Shown here piece after piece: positions 6,855 through 18,652 of a DNA stretch of 43,909 bases. The notes under the pieces are model-generated. The model was not told the DNA's origin and did no database searches. It was given only the letters and a program-made list of their open reading frames with translations. Positions within the stretch are counted from its first letter, which is position 1; every line of letters begins with the position of its first letter. The DNA is from Armatimonadota bacterium (GTDB lineage Bacteria; Bacteroidota; Ignavibacteria; OLB7), in assembly GCA_020850315.1 (NCBI GenBank), contig JADZEY010000003.1:1-43909 (forward strand). Reading direction: 5' to 3'. The translations under genes were made by a program, and so were the position numbers.

Positions 6855-8300
6855 TTACCGAACCACGTTCACAGCCTTCACCGCAGTGCCAGCGGTGGTG
6901 GTGATGCGAACGAAATAGAGGCCCGCAGGAAGTTGCGCGGTGCTTAACCGTGCCGCGCCGTCGTCGGCAAGGTCATCGGTTAGCTTCGCCACGGTGCGGC
7001 CCACGGCATCCAGAAGCTCACCATGCAGGCTGTTGGGTTGGCGCAAACGGATGGTGAGATCTGCAGAGGTTGGATTGGGGAACACGCTGAGCCCTTCGGT
7101 TGCCAACGCATCTTCTTCGACCGAAGAGACTGGCTCGCCGTCGCGGAAGATTTTTCCAAGCAACATATCCTGGCCGCCACCAACCAACAGTGAGTTGGAA
7201 GTAGTGGAACCGGCAACCACAAATCCATCAGGAGTCTCGTAGCCGCAGTAACCGAAGTCATTCCCTTCGGCTCCCAGCCGTTGCTCCCATTGGATGTTTC
7301 CCTGCCCATCGGTTTTCGCCACGTAGGCATCGTAGTTACCGTTGGTTTGTCCGTTGGTAAGGCCAAACATCACAAAGCCGCCATCGCTGGTTTGGCGGCC
7401 CGACCAGATGAAGGAATCATCACCGATTCCGCCGTAGTGCTTATCAACAGTAGTGTTGCCGGCGGAGTCCAGCACCAGCATCCATCCGGTTCCACCTTGG
7501 TTATTGCCCGACCCTCCAAACAGCGCAAAGCCCCCTTCGCGGGTGTTCACGATGTAGTAGGGGGAGTCATGAAGAGTAGTTCCGCTGGTTGGGGTTTTGC
7601 TCCATTGCTGCACCCCGTTGCTATCCACCTTAAACACCCAGTATTTCTCAAGCCCCCCAACAACCGTATGGCAGAGCAGCACGCAGCCACCGTCGGCGGT
7701 TAGCCTTGCTGCGTGGGAGTGTTCGGCGTAATTCAGGCTGAACACTTTTTCCCACAGCACGTTCCGCTCGGCATCCATCCGGATCATCCAGACGTCGCCG
7801 CTTTCGTCCCCTTTCGAATCAGTGTGACCCGTCATGTAGTATCCGCCTTCGGGGCGATCCAGCACGATGTGGGCATGGTCGCTGCGGGCGTAGTCAATGT
7901 CTTTTTCCCAGACGATGTTGCCGTCGTCGTCAATTTTGTACATCAAGGCGTGTTCGTCGCCGCTGAACTGGCGGCCACTAAATCCGGCCAGCAGCCACCC
8001 ACCATCCAGCGAAGGCTCAAGCCCCCAAATCGTTTCGCTAACCCCTGGGCGGCCGTAGGTTTTTTCCCATTTCTTGTTCCCTTTGGCATCAAATCGGGCG
8101 GCCCAGTAATCCACACTGGCTTCGGTGCTTCCCCCTTTTGTTCCAACAACAATAAACCCGCCGTCGCTGGCGGGCTGCAGGGCGTAGGCGTATTCGTTTT
8201 GTGAACTGCCAATCGCCCAAACGGAGTCGCGCGTTTGGGCAGTGGCAGCCATTGACAGGGTGCAAAGAATTGCCCCTGCAAGAAGTAGTTTCGGTCTCAT
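6855..8300 (-). CDS. Secreted beta-propeller-like protein with T9SS type A sorting domain
   Basis: 481 residues. The signal peptide is MRPKLLLAGAILCTLSMAATAQ, cut near residue 21. The body has about seven repeats of roughly 50 residues, each marked by a DGGF/EGG..G turn (SDGGFIVVG, LDGGWLLAG, PEGGYYMTG, ADGGCVLL, REGGFALFG, SDGGFVMFG, TPDGFVVAG), consistent with a seven-bladed propeller. The last 80 residues (LSVFPNPTSADLTIRL ... LPAGLYFVRITTTAG ... KAVNVVR) form a T9SS type A sorting domain, which directs export through the outer membrane and surface attachment. The ligand or activity is unknown. It is monocistronic, with a terminator downstream and a long leader region upstream. Confidence 0.9.
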   Translation of the reverse strand: MRPKLLLAGAILCTLSMAATAQTRDSVWAIGSSQNEYAYALQPASDGGFIVVGTKGGSTEASVDYWAARFDAKGNKKWEKTYGRPGVSETIWGLEPSLDGGWLLAGFSGRQFSGDEHALMYKIDDDGNIVWEKDIDYARSDHAHIVLDRPEGGYYMTGHTDSKGDESGDVWMIRMDAERNVLWEKVFSLNYAEHSHAARLTADGGCVLLCHTVVGGLEKYWVFKVDSNGVQQWSKTPTSGTTLHDSPYYIVNTREGGFALFGGSGNNQGGTGWMLVLDSAGNTTVDKHYGGIGDDSFIWSGRQTSDGGFVMFGLTNGQTNGNYDAYVAKTDGQGNIQWEQRLGAEGNDFGYCGYETPDGFVVAGSTTSNSLLVGGGQDMLLGKIFRDGEPVSSVEEDALATEGLSVFPNPTSADLTIRLRQPNSLHGELLDAVGRTVAKLTDDLADDGAARLSTAQLPAGLYFVRITTTAGTAVKAVNVVR

Positions 8301-8465
8301 CGGCGGCAGCTTGGTTTGTGAGTAATCAAGGTAGGTTCTTGCTGTTTGGTGAGTAAGCTACAACAGAAATAGCGACAAGAAGCGATGGGGGATTTTTTTT
8401 TCTTCTTGCGGATAGCTCGTGGCTCAATCACAAGCAATAACTGGCATGGGATGAAGCCACATTGC

Positions 8466-8473
8466 TATCTTTG
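8466..8473 (+). promoter_or_regulatory. Possible Bacteroidota-type -7 element (TATCTTTG)
   Basis: TATCTTTG fits the TAnnTTTG -7 consensus used by the primary sigma factor of Bacteroidota and lies 14 bases before the ATG of the Cys-rich gene. No clear TTG -33 box is seen at the expected distance, so this is only a candidate. Confidence 0.3.
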
Positions 8474-8487
8474 CCGCCAAGATTGCC

Positions 8488-8892
8488 ATGAGAAATATCC
8501 TGCACCATATCGCCGTTCTGCTGCAGTTGCTTGCGCTTGCGCCGGTAAACACACTGGCCGCGTTGGGGGTTACAAGCAACGATTGCTGCGCACCGCAGCA
8601 ACCAGTTTCGGCAGCAGCTTCCAATGGCGATCACTGTTGCGTTGATGAAGCACGCTTGCAAGAGCATGATTCCGATGGCCGCGCCACCCCGGGGCAGTGC
8701 AGCCACCCGCCTTCGGCGCAGGATCAATCCGATAACGCCCACAACTGCACCTGCTGCCTTGTGGGAACCATCGCCTGCCCCGTGTTCCTTCCTCCCCCTT
8801 CGCTGCTGCTTGCTTGCGTGGATTCCCACTACTCCCCCCATCCCCTTTCCACATTCTCCCCGGCCATTGATCACCCTCCCTGTTTGTTGTAG
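8488..8892 (+). CDS. Small Cys-rich exported protein, probable metal-related partner of TonB receptor
   Basis: 134 residues with an N-terminal hydrophobic export signal (MRNILHHIAVLLQLLALAP). The mature part carries about eleven cysteines, many paired (NDCC, DHCC, QCSH, HNCTCC, ACP), with His nearby, a pattern suited to binding soft metals. The C-terminal third is Pro-rich. Bacteroidota often encode a short His/Cys-rich exported protein (HYC_CC_PP-like) just before a TonB-dependent receptor; the resemblance is from memory. The receptor starts 99 bases downstream on the same strand, so the two probably form an operon. Binding of copper or another metal is inference. Coding status is supported by the signal peptide, the Cys pattern and the context. 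Confidence 0.6.
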   Translation: MRNILHHIAVLLQLLALAPVNTLAALGVTSNDCCAPQQPVSAAASNGDHCCVDEARLQEHDSDGRATPGQCSHPPSAQDQSDNAHNCTCCLVGTIACPVFLPPPSLLLACVDSHYSPHPLSTFSPAIDHPPCLL

Positions 8893-8991
8893 TTCGGCCC
8901 CGCCACCATCGTTGTACCAATCCACTCGGCAGCATTGCACCGCTGCGTGGTGGCACTGCTTCGGATAGTAGAAACGAACAACAATCAAACA

Positions 8992-11268
8992 ATGAACAAT
9001 AGACTACTCACACTTCCATTGTGGGCATTGGTTTGCTTGCAGCTGCAGGCCCAACAACCCACCACAATCGGCGAAACCACGCCACCAACAGAATCTTTGC
9101 AAACTGCCCCCACGGGAACAAAACCGCTGCTTGGCCGGATACGTTCGGCGGGGGATGGGTCCCCAATCAGCGGAGCCACCATCCGCGTTGTTGGTGTGGA
9201 TAGCAGCTACGCCGGCCAGCAAGGGGCAATCACCCGCGCCGACGGAACCTTCACGTTGCAACGCCCGGCAGCGGCCATCACTCTGGAAATCCGCTCGATC
9301 GGCTACGCAACCAAAACCATCACCGTGGCCGACACCATGACGCTAATGGCCACCACGCTTCAGGAAACCGAAGCGTTGCAGCCAACGGTGCACGTGACCG
9401 GAATACGCCGGCAACGCTCGGTGGAGGACGCTTGCTGCCGTGTGGAATCACTGCAAGAAGAGGTGCAGCAGCACGCCCCATTTTCCCCAAGCGTTGGCGA
9501 AGTGCTCCGCCGCTACAGTTCCTGCACCTCGGCACGGATCAGCTGCGCAATTGATAACTCCGCCTCGATTCGGCTGCGGGGATTGGAACCCACCTACGTG
9601 AAAACCTTGATTGATGGAATGCCGGTCTTCGGCGGGCTATCCACATTCTACGGCCTAAGCCTGATCCCCGCTGGGGCGTTGCAGACGATCAAAATTTCCG
9701 AGGGGGCCTCCAGCGGGCTGCACGGAAACGGCGCGGTCAGCGGCGTGGTGGACTTACTGCTGCGGCAACCAACCGAAGTAAGCGAGCTGAACGTGACGGC
9801 CAACCTTGCCGGGGATGGAGCAAGCCTTCCGGAAGGACGCGACGTTGGCGTTGGCTACACCGGAATGGCCGGGAATGTTGGGATTGCTGCCTTCGGCGCA
9901 TTCAACCAGCATCAGGGGGATTTGGACCGCGAAGCAATTGCCCGCAACTACACCCGATTCAGCGGCGTTGCCCGAGCAAACATCATGGCCGATGATGCCA
10001 CGGAACTGACGCTCACAACAATCGGCGCGGGGGAATCGCGCGAGGGAACTGTTGCCGGACTTTCCGGGCAGCAACCATTCCGTGAGGCAGTGGACCTTGC
10101 CCGCTACGACCTGATGCTGCGGGGTGCGCGCTCCTTCACGGAAACTTCCGAACTCAGCATCGCCGCAATGTTCAGCGGGATGCACGCCACCCACGACGCA
10201 GGAGAATTAACGGCATCGGAACTTGCGCAGAAGGTGATGTTCGGCAACATCCTGTTCCGCACGGAGTTGGCGGGGAACAACCTTACCATTGGGGGTGAGT
10301 TCCGCAGCGACCGGATGGAATCGGAACAACGCCCAGACCTTGCCTACGATTACTCCGTCGGCTCGCTGATTCTTCAAGATGAGCTCCCACTTTCGGAACA
10401 GGTTGGGCTGCTTGGGAGCGTTCGGCTTGATAACCACTCGGCAGCGGGGAGCATCATCTCGCCACGCGGTTCGGTTCGCTACCAGCCAATTGCAAATTTG
10501 ACCATGCGGCTGATGGCCGGGCGTGGGTTCAAAGGGCAAGCATTGTTTGATGAGAATCACCTTTCGGTGGATGGGGTCTATCGCTGGCGGAACAATCCAG
10601 AGTTTGATTTCGAGCGCTCCACAACCTTCAACTACGACATCAGCTACAGCTTCATGATTGGGGAAACCGCAGGGGTTGATGCCAACTTCAACGCCTACTG
10701 GACCGCAATTGATGGCAAAGGTATCCCCCACCCCGACTCGCTGGCGGCGGGAACGCTGTTCATGGTCAACAGCAACCGCCCCACGCGGCTAACGGGGATG
10801 GAGCTTCAGCTTCGTCCGAACATTGGCGAGCATCTAAGTGGGTCGGTAGGGCTTGCGCTGATCCGCTACGCCATGCAGGATGCGGCGGGAAGCTACCAGC
10901 AGCTTCCCCTTGCGCCACGCGCCAACGTTGACGCTTCGGTGATGTACGAAGATCGCCAGCAAGGGATCACCGCCGAAGCATGGGGAAGCTGGATCGGGTC
11001 GCAGCTGCTTCCGGCCAATCCAAGCAACCTGGCCCAGTCGCCAGCCTACACACTGCTGAACTTTCGCGTTGAAAAAGCATTTGGGAAATTGGCACTCTAT
11101 GCCGGAGCAATGAACCTGCTGGATCAGCAACAAGAGCGCACCATGCCGCTGGCCTTCGAGACCAGCAACCGCGCAGTTGATGGAAGCATAGTGTGGGGGC
11201 CGATAGAAGGGCGCGAGTTTTTTGCAGGAGTGCGCTGGGCGGTGTTTGGTGGAGAGGATGAGAACTGA
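8992..11268 (+). CDS. TonB-dependent outer-membrane receptor
   Basis: About 758 residues, starting MNNRLLTLPLWALVCLQLQAQ (signal peptide); upstream in-frame codons to 8935 are not needed. A carboxypeptidase-regulatory-like domain follows (ISGATIRVVGVDSSYAG ... LEIRSIGYATKTITV). The plug domain contains ASIRLRGLEPTYVKTLIDGMPVFGGLSTFYGL and GAVSGVVDLLLRQP. The rest is a beta-barrel ending FFAGVRWAVF. The plug has unusual cysteines (EDACCRVES and SCTSARISCAID), seen in receptors that sit beside Cys-rich proteins. It probably imports a metal or metal complex using TonB energy; substrate identity is inference. It is complete, with no frameshift. Confidence 0.92.
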   Translation: MNNRLLTLPLWALVCLQLQAQQPTTIGETTPPTESLQTAPTGTKPLLGRIRSAGDGSPISGATIRVVGVDSSYAGQQGAITRADGTFTLQRPAAAITLEIRSIGYATKTITVADTMTLMATTLQETEALQPTVHVTGIRRQRSVEDACCRVESLQEEVQQHAPFSPSVGEVLRRYSSCTSARISCAIDNSASIRLRGLEPTYVKTLIDGMPVFGGLSTFYGLSLIPAGALQTIKISEGASSGLHGNGAVSGVVDLLLRQPTEVSELNVTANLAGDGASLPEGRDVGVGYTGMAGNVGIAAFGAFNQHQGDLDREAIARNYTRFSGVARANIMADDATELTLTTIGAGESREGTVAGLSGQQPFREAVDLARYDLMLRGARSFTETSELSIAAMFSGMHATHDAGELTASELAQKVMFGNILFRTELAGNNLTIGGEFRSDRMESEQRPDLAYDYSVGSLILQDELPLSEQVGLLGSVRLDNHSAAGSIISPRGSVRYQPIANLTMRLMAGRGFKGQALFDENHLSVDGVYRWRNNPEFDFERSTTFNYDISYSFMIGETAGVDANFNAYWTAIDGKGIPHPDSLAAGTLFMVNSNRPTRLTGMELQLRPNIGEHLSGSVGLALIRYAMQDAAGSYQQLPLAPRANVDASVMYEDRQQGITAEAWGSWIGSQLLPANPSNLAQSPAYTLLNFRVEKAFGKLALYAGAMNLLDQQQERTMPLAFETSNRAVDGSIVWGPIEGREFFAGVRWAVFGGEDEN

Positions 11269-11291
11269 GTGTGATAGCCCCCCTCGGTGAG

Positions 11292-11384
11292 GTTGCTTCA
11301 TCGAAGACTCCTTGCAATGACGCGCTGTGAGCTTTGGGAACCCTCGCCCCGCATCATTGCCCAGAGCCATGGCGACGAAGCAAC
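11292..11384. repeat. Imperfect inverted repeat of the GTTGCTTCRTCG...GCAATGA type
   Basis: The left arm (11292-11322) starts GTTGCTTCATCG and ends GCAATGACG. The right arm (11352-11384), read on the minus strand, starts GTTGCTTCGTCG and ends GCAATGATG. Arms with these words recur as intergenic repeats in many environmental genomes (from memory). Here they follow the TonB gene and could also fold as a terminator-like structure. Confidence 0.6.
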
Positions 11385-11717
11385 GACGGGGGAATGACGT
11401 GTCACCCGCTACCATTTCCGTGGCGTATCACACGCCGGATCAGCACTATTTTCCGCCGGTTTCTTCGGTGGTGATGGTTGTGTTGGGCGTGGGTGGGCTG
11501 TGCTGTTGGGGCTATCGCCGATTGGCAGACGGAGCAAGGCATAGCCCCCACCATACCGAAGAAAAAGAAGGATAGATAGTGAGGTTCGACAAGGGTTCTG
11601 GTGGTGGGAAGTTCCATAATTGTCGCTGTAGTATGGTGTTGAAGTCTGCCCGGCTATGCTGAATTTCAGCAGCGGTTCCGAACGCCTGCAAATGTATTGT
11701 ACTGGCACTTCCGCCGA

Positions 11718-11735
11718 ATGTACCCAAGGGTACAT
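11718..11735. promoter_or_regulatory. Perfect palindrome ATGTACCC-AA-GGGTACAT upstream of DUF2461 gene
   Basis: Two perfect 8-base arms are separated by AA, 57 bases before the ATG at 11793. A second palindrome, GCTGAA-T-TTCAGC, lies at 11658-11670. The size and spacing fit a dimeric repressor operator, but no regulator gene is adjacent, and a role is inference. Confidence 0.4.
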
Positions 11736-11792
11736 CATCGGGTTGAAATTTCACGAGCTTCTGCGCCCATCCACAATCAACCAGCTATTTCC

Positions 11793-12509
11793 ATGAGCCA
11801 ACTACTCCCCGATGTCCCGCCACCAATGCCGTTCGACGGCTTCAGCACCAACACCTTCAACTTCCTTCACCAGCTGAAGGAGAACAACAACAAACCGTGG
11901 TTCGATTCCCACCGTGCCGACTACGAACACCACCTGCGCCAGCCAAGCAAAGATTTGGTTGCACAGATGGCATCCCTGTTTGCCGAGCATGGATTGCCGC
12001 TGATCGCCACCCCGCAACGCTCGCTGTTCCGCATCAACCGCGACATCCGTTTCTCCAAGGATAAATCCCCCTACAAAACGCATATCGGCATTGTCTTCCC
12101 AATGGAGGGATTAGGCGCGGGGGAGTGGTTCGGATGCTACTTCAGCTTCCAGCCGGAAGGGAAGCGCGGTGTGCTGAGTTACTGCGGCGGCGGGGTTCAT
12201 ATGCCTTCGGCCCCGGTGCTGCAACGCCTGCGCAAGCGGATTGAGAACAACCACGAAGAGCTTACAGCACTATCCAACGACCCAGATTTTTTGGCGCTCT
12301 ATCCAACGGGGCTGAAAGGGGAATCGCTACAACGAATGCCGAAAGGATACACCGAACCACACCCCGCCGCCAACTACCTGAAGATGACCAACTTCGAGTT
12401 TGCTGCAACGATTACGCAGCAACAACTCACCAGCCCCGATTTACCAGAACTGTTGCTGGCACATTGCGCAGCGGCAATGCCACTGCTGGAGTTTTTTGCA
12501 ACCCCGTAA
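11793..12509 (+). CDS. DUF2461 (TIGR02453) family protein
   Basis: A 238-residue protein of unknown biochemical function. It matches DUF2461: an N-terminal FLHQLKENNNKPWFDSHRADY block (family F-L..L..NN.k.WF...r..Y), then the hallmark FRINRDIRFSKDKSPYKTHIG, then a C-terminal region with PKGYTEPHPAANYLKMTNF. I chose the ATG at 11793 because the conserved region starts soon after it, although the frame is open from 11697. It converges on the nucleotidyltransferase gene with a hairpin in between. Confidence 0.88.
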   Translation: MSQLLPDVPPPMPFDGFSTNTFNFLHQLKENNNKPWFDSHRADYEHHLRQPSKDLVAQMASLFAEHGLPLIATPQRSLFRINRDIRFSKDKSPYKTHIGIVFPMEGLGAGEWFGCYFSFQPEGKRGVLSYCGGGVHMPSAPVLQRLRKRIENNHEELTALSNDPDFLALYPTGLKGESLQRMPKGYTEPHPAANYLKMTNFEFAATITQQQLTSPDLPELLLAHCAAAMPLLEFFATP

Positions 12510-12514
12510 CCGAG

Positions 12515-12551
12515 CGGGAAACCAGGGGCTGAACTCACTTCTGGTTCCCCG
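12515..12551. terminator. Bidirectional hairpin between convergent genes
   Basis: CGGGAAACCAG (12515-12525) pairs with CTGGTTCCCCG (12541-12551) with one mismatch. It fills the 43-base gap between the stops of the DUF2461 gene (plus) and the nucleotidyltransferase gene (minus). Confidence 0.55.
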
Positions 12552-12552
12552 T

Positions 12553-13335
12553 TTACTTCTGCATCATCTCCCCGATGACTTCCAAAAACCACTGTTCCCC
12601 TTCTTGCTGCCGCTGGCGGATTTCATCGGCGTTGGCAACGTAGAAGAACCGCTCCAACCGCGCACCAAGCTCCGCCGGAAGATCATGCTGGATATACCGT
12701 GTGTGGAAGTTGTGGCGTTGTGGGCAATGCCTGATTCGCAGAAGCTCCACCAGCGGGCGCACCAACCAACTGTGGTAGAACGCAACCGCTTCAATCACAT
12801 TCCCACGGTTCAACTCCTTCAGCACCAGCGGTTGGAACAGGATGAAATTTTGACGCATCTGCGGAAGCCGCGCAAGCAGCGATTGCCGGTGCGATTCGGC
12901 ATCGAACGGAGCCGGCCCCACCACCCCAGATTTATCGAAATGAACCACCGGAACGCCATGGATGGCTTGCCGCAAAAAAGCTTCACGCGCAGCGGCTTGG
13001 CTGTGGCGGCTGATGCTAAGATCAATCATCAAAAATGGGCTGGCATTGGCAAGGCGGTAGAACGCCTGCGAATGCCCATGCCACGTTGGGTCCGGAAGCC
13101 GGAAGCGAATTTCAATGGCTGAAAGGGTTGCCAGTGCGTGCTCAACTTCGGCGAAAGCCTCCTCCACGTGGTCGTCGTCAACGTCAAATTGCAGGTCAAT
13201 ATCGGACCACTGGTCAACACGGTCGAAAGCAATCGCGCCGGCCTCCCACATTGCATGAACGTAGGGAAGCGGCTGAAGCCGTTGGCGAAGCGCGTGAAGA
13301 ATTTCCTGGCGAGTAAGAAGCGATGGAGAGTCCAT
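12553..13335 (-). CDS. Nucleotidyltransferase-domain protein
   Basis: A 260-residue protein starting MDSPSLLTRQEI. The Pol-beta-type nucleotidyltransferase core is visible early: WEAGAIAFDRVDQWSDIDLQFDVDDD, with the two metal-binding Asp residues in SDIDL. The usual GS of the GSxxxGxxxxxSDID motif is replaced by AGAIAF, so the nucleotide-binding loop is atypical. The C-terminal half is helical (VLKELNRGNVIEAVAFYHSWLVRPLVELLRIRHCP), as in aminoglycoside-nucleotidyltransferase- or MNT-like proteins. Substrate unknown. The ATG at 13335 fits the domain start, and longer in-frame extension to 13464 looks non-coding. Confidence 0.75.
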   Translation of the reverse strand: MDSPSLLTRQEILHALRQRLQPLPYVHAMWEAGAIAFDRVDQWSDIDLQFDVDDDHVEEAFAEVEHALATLSAIEIRFRLPDPTWHGHSQAFYRLANASPFLMIDLSISRHSQAAAREAFLRQAIHGVPVVHFDKSGVVGPAPFDAESHRQSLLARLPQMRQNFILFQPLVLKELNRGNVIEAVAFYHSWLVRPLVELLRIRHCPQRHNFHTRYIQHDLPAELGARLERFFYVANADEIRQRQQEGEQWFLEVIGEMMQK

Positions 13336-13588
13336 GTGAAGTTGGCAGTTGAGTTGTGATGTAGCGGTGCTCCCTCCGCAAATCGTCCGCCCCGAACGGG
13401 AGAACGGAGGAAGAGTTACGAGTTTTTTTCCCCCAACGGGCCACACCACCCAATCCCAGAACAACGCCCTACGGGCACCACATTGCTATATCCCTCCTGT
13501 TCCCCAATTTCCCTCTTTGGCATCTCGCAGCGTCGCGGTAGATTTCGCGCTGCTATGATCCGGTTCTGTTGGGAACATTCAACATTGA

Positions 13589-16500
13589 ATGAATGTTCTT
13601 ACCTCTGCAACCAATTCCGCAAGCACCGAAGCTCACTTTCCTGCAACACCGATGAAACCGACCCGGCTGAACCTTCCCACACTTCGTGCAGCACGATTTG
13701 CTCACCCCGGTAGCCCTTCCAACTTCTCCCATTCGGCACTGCTGCGCCCCGGCGGCCCGGCGGTTACGCGGCGGCAAGTGGTGAAAATGGCAGGCCTTGC
13801 TGCGCTTGGAATCACGCCCGCAGCAGGCGCGGTTGCCCCTTCGTTGCTGGGAAATTTGGAGATGGTTGGCGACCGCAACCACGTGGCGTTTCTGCTGGGG
13901 GGGAAAGTCCGTTGGGCGATCAACACGCGGCGGTTTGGGGGAAGCCCCAGGCTTGCGGTGGCCCGCACCGATTCGGCGATTACCGTGCAACTGCGCGGCG
14001 CGCTCTTTCCGGGAACCACCCTTCCTGCCAATCTTCATCTGACCATCCACCGCGGACTGATGGGATGCCGCGCCACGCTGCAGATGGAGCTTGGCAAGTT
14101 CCATTGCGACTTCCCTTTTGAACGCTGGCTGATTGGAATGAGCCGTGCCGAATCGCGGGTTGAGTTTTCCGGCCACAACACTGGCGGCGCGCCGTTGGTG
14201 CTGCGCGGCAAAGCCCATGCAGCCTTCACCCCCGATTGGAGCTTGGCCATTGATGGAGATGGAGTTGCGGAAGTCAATCACTTCGATGCCGCAGCAACCG
14301 CCGATGGATGCACCCTGAAGCTGGCCGAACCCACAGAACCAAGCCTGTTGGAAGAACCAATTTCCCGCCGAACAATCATCAAGGTTGAGCGTGGCAACCG
14401 GACTTGGGCGTTCCTTCCGGCGATTGCTTCGGGGCTTGGATGGAGTGCCGCAGCAGCCAACACCTTCGACCGCCTCACCATTGAAGCTGCCGAAAGCCGC
14501 ACCCGCCAGGCACGCCACGCAATCCTTGCCGAGCATCTTGGCGACGGGCCATCGCTGGCCGTTGCAACCGGCTACGGCCTAGACCGCGACGGGGATCCAT
14601 TCCAGCTTCCGATCCGTTCGGCAGCATACGCCGCAGCGGTTGGGCCGGATGGAAGCCGGCATCAAGCAGTGATTGGACGCTATCCGCAATCCCCGGTCTG
14701 GCTGCATGATGGCGGAATCAGCCTTGAGCTATCCGATGCCGAAGGGCTGCCGCCGATCGAGATCACCGGGGTGAATGGGCATATCCAGCGGGCCGCGCTT
14801 GCCCCCACCATTCGGCGGCTTCATGCGGCAATGCCCGGCGCGATTACCGAGCCATCTTTCTTCCCGGAAGGCCACCGTTTGAACCTGATGCCCGACTCCC
14901 CGTTTGTGGCCCCGAAAGGTCCAATCATCACCAAGCCCGGCGGCGATATCACCATCGGCGCGGGGGCGGCCAAGGATGCGGCAAAGGACGCTGAAAAATT
15001 CAAAATGCTTCCATCGGGAACGCCCGATGGAGACAAGATTCAGCCAACAAACCCCACCCCATTCCCGGCGGACCTCACCGTCTCGGTTGTTCGGCCAAAG
15101 GATCTTCTGGTGCTTCGGTTCCAGTTCGTCAACCTTGCGCTGCAATACCGCGAAGGGTCGGGGAATTTTTTGGTGCGAACTGGCGACAAAGCCGCCTATC
15201 TGGTGATCCACTTCCCGCCGCAGAACATCGCCGAGCAGGCATTTTTCGAGACTTCGGCCGAGGAGAACTACGCCCCCGCCAAAAAAAGCGACGGCAGCCC
15301 AATCGGCCCCGGCGATGCTGGCTATCCGCCAGCCGGCGGCGGCGAACCCCCAACCCCGCCACCGGTGAAAGCCCGCATTGCCGGCCCCAGCCGCCTTGCA
15401 TTTTTTATCCCGAAGGAGATCACCACAATCCCCTACACGCTGGAGGCGCTGTTGGATTGGTCGAAGCTGGAGCCAAGCCTTCCCAGCGTGGCACTGCCGC
15501 CGCCGCCACCGCCGCCGCAAGTGATGGCTGGCGGGTGGGGAGGGAAAGCCGGGACAATCACCGCAAAAGATGCGGAGATACGAGATGTGGAGATAGCAAC
15601 CTACAAGGGGAAGGCACGCGCAGCCAAATCGGCCAACGCCACCAGCGTGCAAAAAAAGCTGAATGCCGAGGTGCAGATTGATGAAGGGATGCAGCAGAAA
15701 ATGGCGATCGAAATCGAAAAAACGGGGGGGCTGAACAGCGAAAAAGCCCGGCGGGTGGCCGCCACCACCGCGCAGAAACCAAAAGCCCGCAAGAAGAACG
15801 GAGGTGGCGAGGATGAGTTCTACGGCTACTTCAGCACCGACCTGGGCTTAAGCTGGTCGGCGGAGCTTGGCGCGTACTTCGGCATCCGCGAGCCGCTGCC
15901 AACCGAGACGGCACTGGAAACCCCCTACCGGCTGATCCTTGCCCCAAACCGTTTTGGCGGCTGGGCACACCTGCAAGGCCCCGTGACCCTTCCGACGGTC
16001 AACCCAGTAACCAACGCAAGCACCGAGCGCACCGAGCTGTGGCACACCCGGCTTGGGGTGATGCGTTCCAGCAAGACCAAAGCCTGGGTGGATGAAGACT
16101 CCGATTACTACCGCACGCTGCGCGCCGTCTGGTCGCCCGATTATGTGAAAGGGGGCCACGCTCCGCACTTCAATCCCAGCGATCCCGTCAGCCTCGAGAG
16201 CTCCATCCGCAACCCCTTCCGGATGTCGCTGGATGCCTTCGACCGCGACGAGCTGGTGAAGCTCACCAGCGATTTCACCCTTGCCGACACCGACGAGCGG
16301 GTGGTGCGGGCCGACCGGCTGATGCTCAGTTCGCTTGGTGCCTGGATGAACGTTCGCGGCGGGTGGGATGTGCCAATCGCCAACCCGCCGCTGTCGGTGG
16401 AGGAATGGCGCCACCGCGCAACAATGGGGCGCGACCACTACGTGCGGGTGGTGTATAAAGGCTTCCTGTTTCCGTTTGGCCACCGCGCAAGCCTGATAAA

Positions 16501-18652
16501 AGTGACCGAGCGGAAATTCCACAAAACCGGCGGCTACATGACCGCCTATCTGCGCCAGCGGATGTTCATTGTGGTGCGCCAACCGCTGAAGGAGTATCCA
16601 GCGTTCGGCCAAAAGCACAACGCGCGCAACTTCCCCTTCCGCAACCTTCGGATCACCACACTGGTGACACCCAACCTTGATGAGCCAAGCAACGATGCAG
16701 TGGTTGTTGGCGGTGCGAACAAAGGGCAATCGGCGTTCTGGCCCAACGTTCTGGCACAACCCTTCCAGTTTCACATGATCGGAAGCGACTGGGAGGGGCG
16801 GAACATCGAGCTTACCTCGCCAGCAATGTTCATCGAAAACTCCGTTGCCTACGACTTCGCAACCATTGATGCTGCCAGGCTAAATCTGGAAAGCAAAACC
16901 GACCGCAGCCGCCGCCAGATGCGTGGGCAAACCATCGCCTTTGCCGCCGCAAAAAAATCGGGCGACACAGCCTTCACCGTCCAAACGCTGACGTTCACGG
17001 CGTTTGTGCCGCCGGTGTCGGAGCTTTCGCAGCTCTCGCTTCAGCAAAACGATCAGCCCCGATTTTATCCGGTGATGAAGGAGTCGGAAGTAGAGATGGA
17101 GGCGGTGAAGGCGATTGCTGGGCTTGGGGGCGCGGTCCCGATCGAGTATCCCGAAACCTACATCACCAACGGTTTTACCGGCGCGGCGGGGGACCCAAAC
17201 GGGAACAGCGGGCAGGTGTTCGCAAAGCTGAAATCGGTGGTGGGGATGGCCTTTGGCGGCGCGGGTGCCGGCACCGAAAAAGTTGGCGGATTGGCCGCGC
17301 CAAACATGAACATCAGCGGGTTGTCGCGGTTGGCCGGCCCGGTTAGCGGGGACCTTGCCGCAATGGCAAAAGGGGCGTTCGATCCGGCGCAGTTTTTTGC
17401 GGGATTGGATGTTGACCTGCTTGGCGGAATCTCGCTGATGGACATCGTGAAAGCCGTCACCGGGTTCGATCTCAGCATGGATTCGCTGAAGAACACGCTG
17501 GAAGATGAGTTGGTGAAAGCCGGAAAGCAAGCCACCAGCGAACTGCTGGCCACGCTGCCGAAGTCGCCAGTTCCGGCGTTCCTCTCGCAAATCATCTACG
17601 AGGCTGAGTCGGCGATTGACGCGGCATCGAAGGCCGCCGAAGCTGCCGAGGAAGCAATCAACCGCATCCCGAAGGAGATTCAGATCATCTTCAAGTGGGA
17701 TCCAGAAGTGGATTCGTTCGGGCCGTTTTTGGTGAAGGGGGACAAGAAGGACACCTTCTCGCTGACGGCAATCACCACCGTTCCGCTGACCGGAAAAGCC
17801 CCCAGCTTTGCCGTCAACGCCTATCTGAAAAACTTCGCGATTGACCTGTTCGAGATCATCACCATCAGCTTCGACTTGGTGAAGTTCAGTGCCGACAGCG
17901 GCGCGAAGATGAATGTGGATCCAAAGATCAAAGCTGTGGAGTTCGGCGGGCCGCTGGGGTTTGTCAACGAGCTGAAGGAGTTCCTGAAGTTCGGCGATAT
18001 GTTCAGCATTGACATCCAGCCCACCGGCTTGCTGCTAACGGTAAACATCGGCTTGCCAGATGTTGCGGTGGGGGCCTTCAGCCTGATGAACATCAATCTT
18101 GGGGCCACGCTCACGCTGCCGTTCACCGGCGATCCGGTCCGATTCCGGTTCCATTTCTGCGAGCGGGAAAGCCCGTTCCGGCTGACGGTCTATATTTTCG
18201 GCGGCGGCGGATTCTTTGCCATCGAGCTTGGGATGGATGGATTGGAGTTGATGGAGGCCGCGTTGGAGTTCGGCGTAAGCGCCTCGATGAACATCGGCGT
18301 TGCCAGCGGCTCGGTCTCGGTGATGGCCGGCATCTACTTCAAGATGGAGATGAACAACGGCCAGGAAAAAATCTCGCTGACTGGCTACGTCAGGGCCAAT
18401 GGCGAGTTAAGCATTCTTGGGTTAATCACCATTTCGGTGGAGTTCTATCTGGGCCTAACGTGGGAGAGCGGCCCGCCCGACCGGGTGTGGGGCGAGGCCA
18501 AAGTGACGGTAAAAGTGGAGATACTCTTCTTCAGCAAGAGTTTCACGCTAACGGTGCGCAAGGAGTTCGTGGATCCACCGCCACCGAAGCTGAAAGAGGT
18601 AATCGAGCAGCCGGAGTGGATGGAGTACCGCCGGGCATTTGCGGCAGTCTAA
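13589..18652 (+). CDS. Very large Tat-exported protein of unknown function (1687 residues)
   Basis: Not recognised as a characterised family. A twin-arginine signal, TRRQVVKMAGLAALGITPAAGA, lies at about 60-81, so a start at 13652 (Met22) is possible instead of 13589. Pro-rich linkers (EPPTPPPVKA, LPPPPPPPQ) precede a Lys/Ala-rich, probably helical region ending in KARKKNGGGEDE. Next comes a block with YRLILAPNRFGGWAHLQGPV and RTELWHTRLGV. Ala-rich helices (AASKAAEAAEEAINRI) then lead into about 350 C-terminal residues of alternating polar/apolar strands (GGGGFFAIELGMDGLELMEA, SGSVSVMAGIYFKMEM, LSILGLITISVEFYLGL). There is no T9SS tail or sortase motif. It is monocistronic, followed by a hairpin, with GC content like its neighbours. 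A large periplasmic or surface scaffold is only a guess. Confidence 0.85.
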   Translation: MNVLTSATNSASTEAHFPATPMKPTRLNLPTLRAARFAHPGSPSNFSHSALLRPGGPAVTRRQVVKMAGLAALGITPAAGAVAPSLLGNLEMVGDRNHVAFLLGGKVRWAINTRRFGGSPRLAVARTDSAITVQLRGALFPGTTLPANLHLTIHRGLMGCRATLQMELGKFHCDFPFERWLIGMSRAESRVEFSGHNTGGAPLVLRGKAHAAFTPDWSLAIDGDGVAEVNHFDAAATADGCTLKLAEPTEPSLLEEPISRRTIIKVERGNRTWAFLPAIASGLGWSAAAANTFDRLTIEAAESRTRQARHAILAEHLGDGPSLAVATGYGLDRDGDPFQLPIRSAAYAAAVGPDGSRHQAVIGRYPQSPVWLHDGGISLELSDAEGLPPIEITGVNGHIQRAALAPTIRRLHAAMPGAITEPSFFPEGHRLNLMPDSPFVAPKGPIITKPGGDITIGAGAAKDAAKDAEKFKMLPSGTPDGDKIQPTNPTPFPADLTVSVVRPKDLLVLRFQFVNLALQYREGSGNFLVRTGDKAAYLVIHFPPQNIAEQAFFETSAEENYAPAKKSDGSPIGPGDAGYPPAGGGEPPTPPPVKARIAGPSRLAFFIPKEITTIPYTLEALLDWSKLEPSLPSVALPPPPPPPQVMAGGWGGKAGTITAKDAEIRDVEIATYKGKARAAKSANATSVQKKLNAEVQIDEGMQQKMAIEIEKTGGLNSEKARRVAATTAQKPKARKKNGGGEDEFYGYFSTDLGLSWSAELGAYFGIREPLPTETALETPYRLILAPNRFGGWAHLQGPVTLPTVNPVTNASTERTELWHTRLGVMRSSKTKAWVDEDSDYYRTLRAVWSPDYVKGGHAPHFNPSDPVSLESSIRNPFRMSLDAFDRDELVKLTSDFTLADTDERVVRADRLMLSSLGAWMNVRGGWDVPIANPPLSVEEWRHRATMGRDHYVRVVYKGFLFPFGHRASLIKVTERKFHKTGGYMTAYLRQRMFIVVRQPLKEYPAFGQKHNARNFPFRNLRITTLVTPNLDEPSNDAVVVGGANKGQSAFWPNVLAQPFQFHMIGSDWEGRNIELTSPAMFIENSVAYDFATIDAARLNLESKTDRSRRQMRGQTIAFAAAKKSGDTAFTVQTLTFTAFVPPVSELSQLSLQQNDQPRFYPVMKESEVEMEAVKAIAGLGGAVPIEYPETYITNGFTGAAGDPNGNSGQVFAKLKSVVGMAFGGAGAGTEKVGGLAAPNMNISGLSRLAGPVSGDLAAMAKGAFDPAQFFAGLDVDLLGGISLMDIVKAVTGFDLSMDSLKNTLEDELVKAGKQATSELLATLPKSPVPAFLSQIIYEAESAIDAASKAAEAAEEAINRIPKEIQIIFKWDPEVDSFGPFLVKGDKKDTFSLTAITTVPLTGKAPSFAVNAYLKNFAIDLFEIITISFDLVKFSADSGAKMNVDPKIKAVEFGGPLGFVNELKEFLKFGDMFSIDIQPTGLLLTVNIGLPDVAVGAFSLMNINLGATLTLPFTGDPVRFRFHFCERESPFRLTVYIFGGGGFFAIELGMDGLELMEAALEFGVSASMNIGVASGSVSVMAGIYFKMEMNNGQEKISLTGYVRANGELSILGLITISVEFYLGLTWESGPPDRVWGEAKVTVKVEILFFSKSFTLTVRKEFVDPPPPKLKEVIEQPEWMEYRRAFAAV

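Follow-up and report, generated by a model that had tools for sequence, protein, structure and literature searches.

The window analysed here (the whole stretch of 43,909 nt from contig JADZEY010000003.1, assembly GCA_020850315.1) carries at nt 13589–18652 (+) a long ORF of 1687 codons with a twin arginine at residues 61–62, designated gene A. Relatives of 1562–3311 aa align with the protein across most of its length, so the ORF is not a chance one, and the reading frame proposed in the initial annotation was confirmed. The closest relative, from a sister genome, shows 87% identity across residues 9–1686, and the other homologues share 30–50% identity. The N-termini of homologues align with Met22, and a box (MxxxxLNLxALR) follows at residue 6, so that, judged by these sequence comparisons, the start of A is almost certainly nt 13652 and not 13589, giving a product of 1666 aa. 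The twin arginine, once described as unusually placed, is normal after this correction, and the signal is a standard-looking one with an extended N-terminus. Table 1 lists the features of the gene together with the tatA genes found beside related loci.

Table 1. Features of gene A in the window and tatA genes adjoining A-B pairs at other loci
Feature	Position (nt)	Strand	Size, basis or remarks
Gene A, corrected start (Met22 of the ORF starting at 13589)	13652..18652	+	1666 aa, ~180 kDa; homologue starts
N-terminal box LNLPTLR, 33 residues before (T)RR	13667..13687	+	Spacing survey of Tat members
Twin arginine, residues 61–62 of the long ORF, 40–41 from the corrected start	13769..13774	+	Invariant in A1
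Hydrophobic region and putative cleavage region AGLAALGITPAAGAVA	13790..13837	+	Sequence, hydropathy; cleavage site inferred
N-terminal domain, ~residues 85–480	13841..15028	+	A1 compared with core-only members starting at ~490
Core beta domain, residues 496–642	15074..15514	+	AlphaFold2, mostly pLDDT 85–96; conserved RPxDLLxL block
Pro-rich and Lys/Ala-rich linker, residues 646–755	15524..15853	+	pLDDT mostly <55; poorly conserved
Middle domain, residues 772–1217, with FGGWAHLQGPV and RTELWHTRLGV	15902..17239	+	pLDDT mostly 90–98
C-terminal curved amphipathic beta sheet (predicted), residues 1357–1660	17657..18568	+	AlphaFold2; porin-like curvature; amphipathic z 7.5
C-terminal tail WMEYRRAFAAV (family WxxYCxAFA)	18617..18649	+	A1/A2 conservation
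tatA beside A-B, L037	9570-9725
tatA beside A-B, L041	9662-9820
tatA beside A-B, L058	1029-1202
tatA beside A-B, L061	9637-9807
tatA beside A-B, L072	1-201
tatA beside A-B, L107	25856-26023

The Pro-rich linkers and the two sequence blocks of the middle domain are present in A as first described, and most of the invariant residues of the family sit in that domain (772–1217). The Lys/Ala-rich stretch is likewise there, at ~646–755; its low pLDDT makes a flexible linker probable. The family core comprises approximately residues 490–1687, and the domain at 85–480 occurs in part of the family only.

Searches with the single sequence and with a profile gave no match to A in Pfam, NCBIfam, PHROGs, PADLOC or PDB sequences. 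A known family for the whole chain was thereby ruled out, in agreement with the original description of a protein of unknown family, and a literature search for the A-B family found nothing. A phage origin was also ruled out, as phage records and a scan of viral contigs gave no hits and viral folds were not significant.

Distribution of A and its partner gene

A profile scan of species genomes returned 75 A loci, distributed among Chlorobiota/Ignavibacteriota/Kapaibacteria and other Bacteroidota, Armatimonadota, Acidobacteriota, Chloroflexota, Nitrospirota, Actinomycetota, Pseudomonadota, Cyanobacteriota and Thermodesulfobacteriota (the phylum labels of some loci are taken from MAG names). The family is patchily spread over at least nine phyla and is additionally carried by 16 plasmids, the hosts of which include Rhizobium, Sinorhizobium, Agrobacterium and Streptomyces. 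The initial annotation had mentioned comparable blocks in giant proteins from further phyla, and the scan found such relatives. Within the window's own phylum, A is present in 9 of 247 sampled genomes and is therefore accessory. A contig labelled Bradyrhizobiaceae (L034) falls inside the Kapaibacteria in the tree and has the same gene order, so that its MAG label is doubted and is probably wrong. In Achromobacter pulmonis (L098, nt 8057–16923), the 5' part of A occurs twice more, in truncated form, upstream of a complete A-B pair, through either duplication or an assembly artefact.

Comparison of gene neighbourhoods across the homologues revealed a partner gene, B, that is missing only beside the window's copy. 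B directly follows A in the same orientation in 69 of the 70 assessable loci, with a median gap of ~16 nt (usually less than ~20), and specifies a second giant protein (1000–1900 aa) that has no family match, Pfam included. The sole exception to the pairing is the window's genus, where A stands alone. An isolated B is present in the window genome on a separate contig from A (G000:C20, L116:6357–10604, minus strand) and also in the sister genome (G001:C47, 87% identical), so two species share the split. This isolated B is probably the lost neighbour of the window A. Distance matrices of A and B at 56 loci correlate with r = 0.93 (permutation maximum 0.14), a value to which shared descent contributes, and the distance row of the window A is best fitted by the isolated B, above every other B. 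The same genome carries a second, distant A-B pair on contig C45. Near the own-genome paralogue pair, a gene on the minus strand (L028:13345–15411) has a product whose match to a mosaic adhesive trimer N-terminal domain stays below the cut-off.

The possibility that A and B are mutual duplicates was ruled out by a negative profile comparison, and an apparent A-B fusion in L057 was also dismissed, the 2395-aa ORF being the B frame staying open through A. A Pfam scan of 83 neighbours (ORFs selected by length) found no recurrent third partner outside Chlorobiota/Kapaibacteria-type genomes. Clusters of the Kapaibacteria/Chlorobiota (L023–L026, L030, L033–L036, L059, L073 and others) also encode two additional proteins. 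One bears a signal and has a QPPPNQLKxADLW domain, frequently accompanied by RCC1 repeats; the other, 650 aa long, ends in an aromatic residue, as outer-membrane proteins do.

Export signal, N-terminal box and tat genes

The window A has a Tat-type signal (TRRQVV...AGLAALG...AGAVA) in which an (S/T)RRxx-hydrophobic motif, a hydrophobic stretch and a small-residue cleavage region are all present; signals of A proteins were judged from motif and hydropathy. The twin arginine is invariant in the alignment of A1 members, and (S/T)RR with a hydrophobic stretch occurs in 37 of 63 rows, which were labelled manually on the basis of motif and context. The motif is also found in all five of the giant plasmid members inspected (rhizobial, agrobacterial and roseobacter; 2277–3311 aa). 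Tat targeting, already suggested for A, gains from the retention of the motif across several phyla and from tatA genes that adjoin the cluster in two lineages. In five Armatimonadota-type loci (L037, L041, L058, L061 and L072) tatA lies immediately upstream of A, and in S. meliloti it is located downstream of B. Four of the five Armatimonadota-type copies show an unusual FGA(T/S)xIP(R/K)LxRG stretch. The window genome encodes TatC and two TatA/B proteins, with matches above cut-off. The reported lack of a T9SS signal was borne out, as the sorting domain models (TIGR04183/PF18962) had no match in A. A T9SS sorting domain together with beta-propeller-like repeats is present in the product of another gene of the window (nt 6855–8300, minus strand), so that the organism does have T9SS cargo, A excepted.

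On the A tree, the Tat motif was lost or gained about five times, with at least three of the changes on well-supported branches. One large branch, comprising most Pseudomonadota, some Actinomycetota and Chloroflexota, and Geobacter/Cyanobium, is without any signal, which means that not every family member is exported by Tat and that the core can function without this route. Members from Geobacter and Cyanobium (L047, L049) show a box-like N-terminal LSFxxL segment and have no twin arginine. Since the signal-less branch retains A, B and the amphipathic sheet described below, the pair might act in the cytoplasm or at the inner membrane face, with the hydrophobic stretch as an anchor gained in some lineages. 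Such a location is judged quite improbable, as the classical (S/T)RRxxL motif is conserved in several phyla and tatA genes adjoin the pair in two unrelated lineages.

An LNLxALR-type box precedes the twin arginine at a near-fixed spacing. Of the 33 Tat members whose N-terminus is complete, 19 have the box 32–34 residues before [ST]RR and 23 have it 31–34 residues before, compared to a mean of 0.2 and a maximum of 2 in a shuffled control, although these figures are not a probability because the sequences share descent. No N-terminal signal peptide was found on the B starts inspected, and the modelled N-terminus of B (L047) is a beta strand of a confident domain from the outset. A B that never has a signal peptide and is always made beside A, together with a box preceding the twin arginine that resembles a binding site, would suit a cytoplasmic chaperone or proofreader that stays bound to A, perhaps through the LNLxALR box, until folding is complete, whereupon Tat would export A alone. 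We consider this role unlikely, because B is about as large as A, has Ig/FnIII-like domains of a kind common in extracellular proteins, and is retained in lineages whose A has no Tat signal.

Predicted structures of A and B

AlphaFold2 modelling of A residues 488–1687 (pLDDT 78.5, pTM 0.69) predicts a beta domain (496–642), a flexible linker, a middle domain (772–1217, pLDDT mostly >90) and a C-terminal sheet (~1357–1660), the last ~300 residues being predicted to form a curved amphipathic beta-sheet. Amphipathic C-terminal strands had been proposed from the sequence, and the pattern proved to be pronounced. Alternation over 16 predicted strands gave z = 7.5 against shuffles (0.6 for the middle domain), and 12 of these strands keep one and the same face hydrophobic in 823 of 826 strand-by-member comparisons, whether or not the member has a Tat signal. 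The first 1200 residues of B (L047) were modelled with a pLDDT of 87.8 as a chain of domains made of Ig/FnIII-like sandwiches. Structural matches to B were generic (best Z 7.6, all <8), and a Foldseek match to the alpha-2-macroglobulin family (6e-7) had a TM-score of only 0.08.

None of the PDB structural matches listed for A lies outside the model range 975–1175, although a known fold may still exist in the remainder. The best matches of residues 1462–1662 are porins (CymA, Z 14.1 over 183 residues, rmsd 4.4; OmpG, ~13), and Foldseek returned SlpA (4e-5) and microsomal triglyceride transfer protein (MTP, 5e-5), with LptD, P47 and lipovitellin also listed, at low TM-scores (0.06–0.08 for MTP and lipovitellin). 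A shares with CymA, OmpG and SlpA a curved sheet of long antiparallel strands (Z ≤14 over ~190 residues), and on these matches the sheet could be taken as an outer-membrane beta barrel and A as a giant outer-membrane protein. However, A would use Tat and not Sec/BAM, and a folded protein exported by Tat would be an odd barrel precursor. The strand pattern is also intact in members without an export signal and fully retained in actinobacterial (monoderm) members, which have no outer membrane, making a barrel unlikely as a general role; as an explanation of A it is highly improbable.

Possible joint export by Tat

The pairing of A with B, the Tat motif and its box, the tatA neighbours and the lack of a signal on B support export of the two proteins together. 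On balance, we lean slightly towards A being a subunit of a two-protein complex, with A and B folding inside the cell and leaving together on the Tat signal of A; physical contact between the two, their joint export, their final location and the ligand are what we infer. Both proteins would be made in the cytoplasm, fold there and bind each other, and the signal of A would then carry the folded complex across the inner membrane, with the signal-less B riding along (Tat hitchhiking). In some lineages the neighbouring tatA may supply additional translocase. Outside the cytoplasm, the curved sheet of A would most likely hold or contact hydrophobic material (lipid or membrane), to judge from the fold resemblance and residue pattern of the model, and B would provide a scaffold of Ig/FnIII-like domains. 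A cofactor had been suggested as the reason for the use of Tat, but a cofactor-binding family was not found, and export of a preassembled A-B complex explains it more economically. Against joint export stand the signal-less branch of A and the mass of the complex, ~337 kDa (180 + 157), which is well above the 135 kDa of PaoABC, discussed below; the S. meliloti pair, estimated from length, exceeds 500 kDa. It is only tentatively proposed that Tat transports a folded heterocomplex of ~337 kDa (>500 kDa in the rhizobial plasmid versions) intact, with the LNLxALR box as an assembly checkpoint and a cargo-linked TatA in some lineages.

Tat hitchhiking is established, and PaoABC, at 135 kDa, has been termed one of the largest Tat-exported structures, the upper limit not having been determined (PMC4273604). 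Like the A-B pair, the E. coli hitchhikers HybOC and PaoABC have a Tat-signal subunit encoded beside a signal-less partner, and export as a folded complex is proposed for A-B; they are redox cofactor enzymes of at most ~135 kDa, whereas A-B would be ~337 kDa and no cofactor family was found. In B. subtilis, TatAdCd has a single known cargo, PhoD, with which it is co-expressed (PMC6708511). There, too, a Tat component is encoded with its presumed cargo, but PhoD is a single protein accompanied by a full TatA-TatC pair, whereas the giant A-B pair is adjoined by tatA only, and in a minority of loci.

One version of joint export would make the A-B complex a carrier of lipid or some other hydrophobic compound, comparable to MTP or lipovitellin. 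This would account for Tat export of a loaded, folded complex, and is consistent with the Foldseek matches to MTP and, more weakly, to P47 and lipovitellin, and with long amphipathic strands that have an aliphatic face. Large lipid transfer proteins (MTP, apoB and lipovitellin) likewise have long amphipathic beta sheets within a large secreted protein, but A-B is bacterial, consists of two proteins and has no sequence relation to them. The TM-scores are very low, the strands would equally fit an ordinary hydrophobic core, and no lipid-metabolism gene recurs among the 83 neighbours (Pfam). The carrier role is thus conceivable but doubtful, and a lipid-binding groove in A, an idea raised in the initial annotation, is possible from the weak match of the model to MTP. 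By the same export route, the pair could instead form an adhesive or structural surface assembly, in keeping with the resemblance of B to extracellular Ig/FnIII chains, the below-cut-off adhesive trimer match near the own-genome paralogue pair, and the signal-bearing RCC1-repeat protein of Kapaibacterium-type clusters. The Ig-like matches are generic, and an anchoring signal was not found on either A or B, so we regard a surface assembly as rather doubtful.

A giant protein pair thus spans nine or more phyla and is also found on plasmids, yet the searches yielded neither a family model nor a relative of solved structure. If A and B do leave the cell together, they would be one of the largest loads proposed for Tat, far above the cases compared here, and the size limit of the translocase would become directly testable with a natural substrate. 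The box, at its near-fixed distance ahead of the twin arginine, would constitute a novel type of signal element. For a pair that is large, patchily distributed and plasmid-borne, a role in competition, attachment or lipid handling could emerge from a simple deletion.
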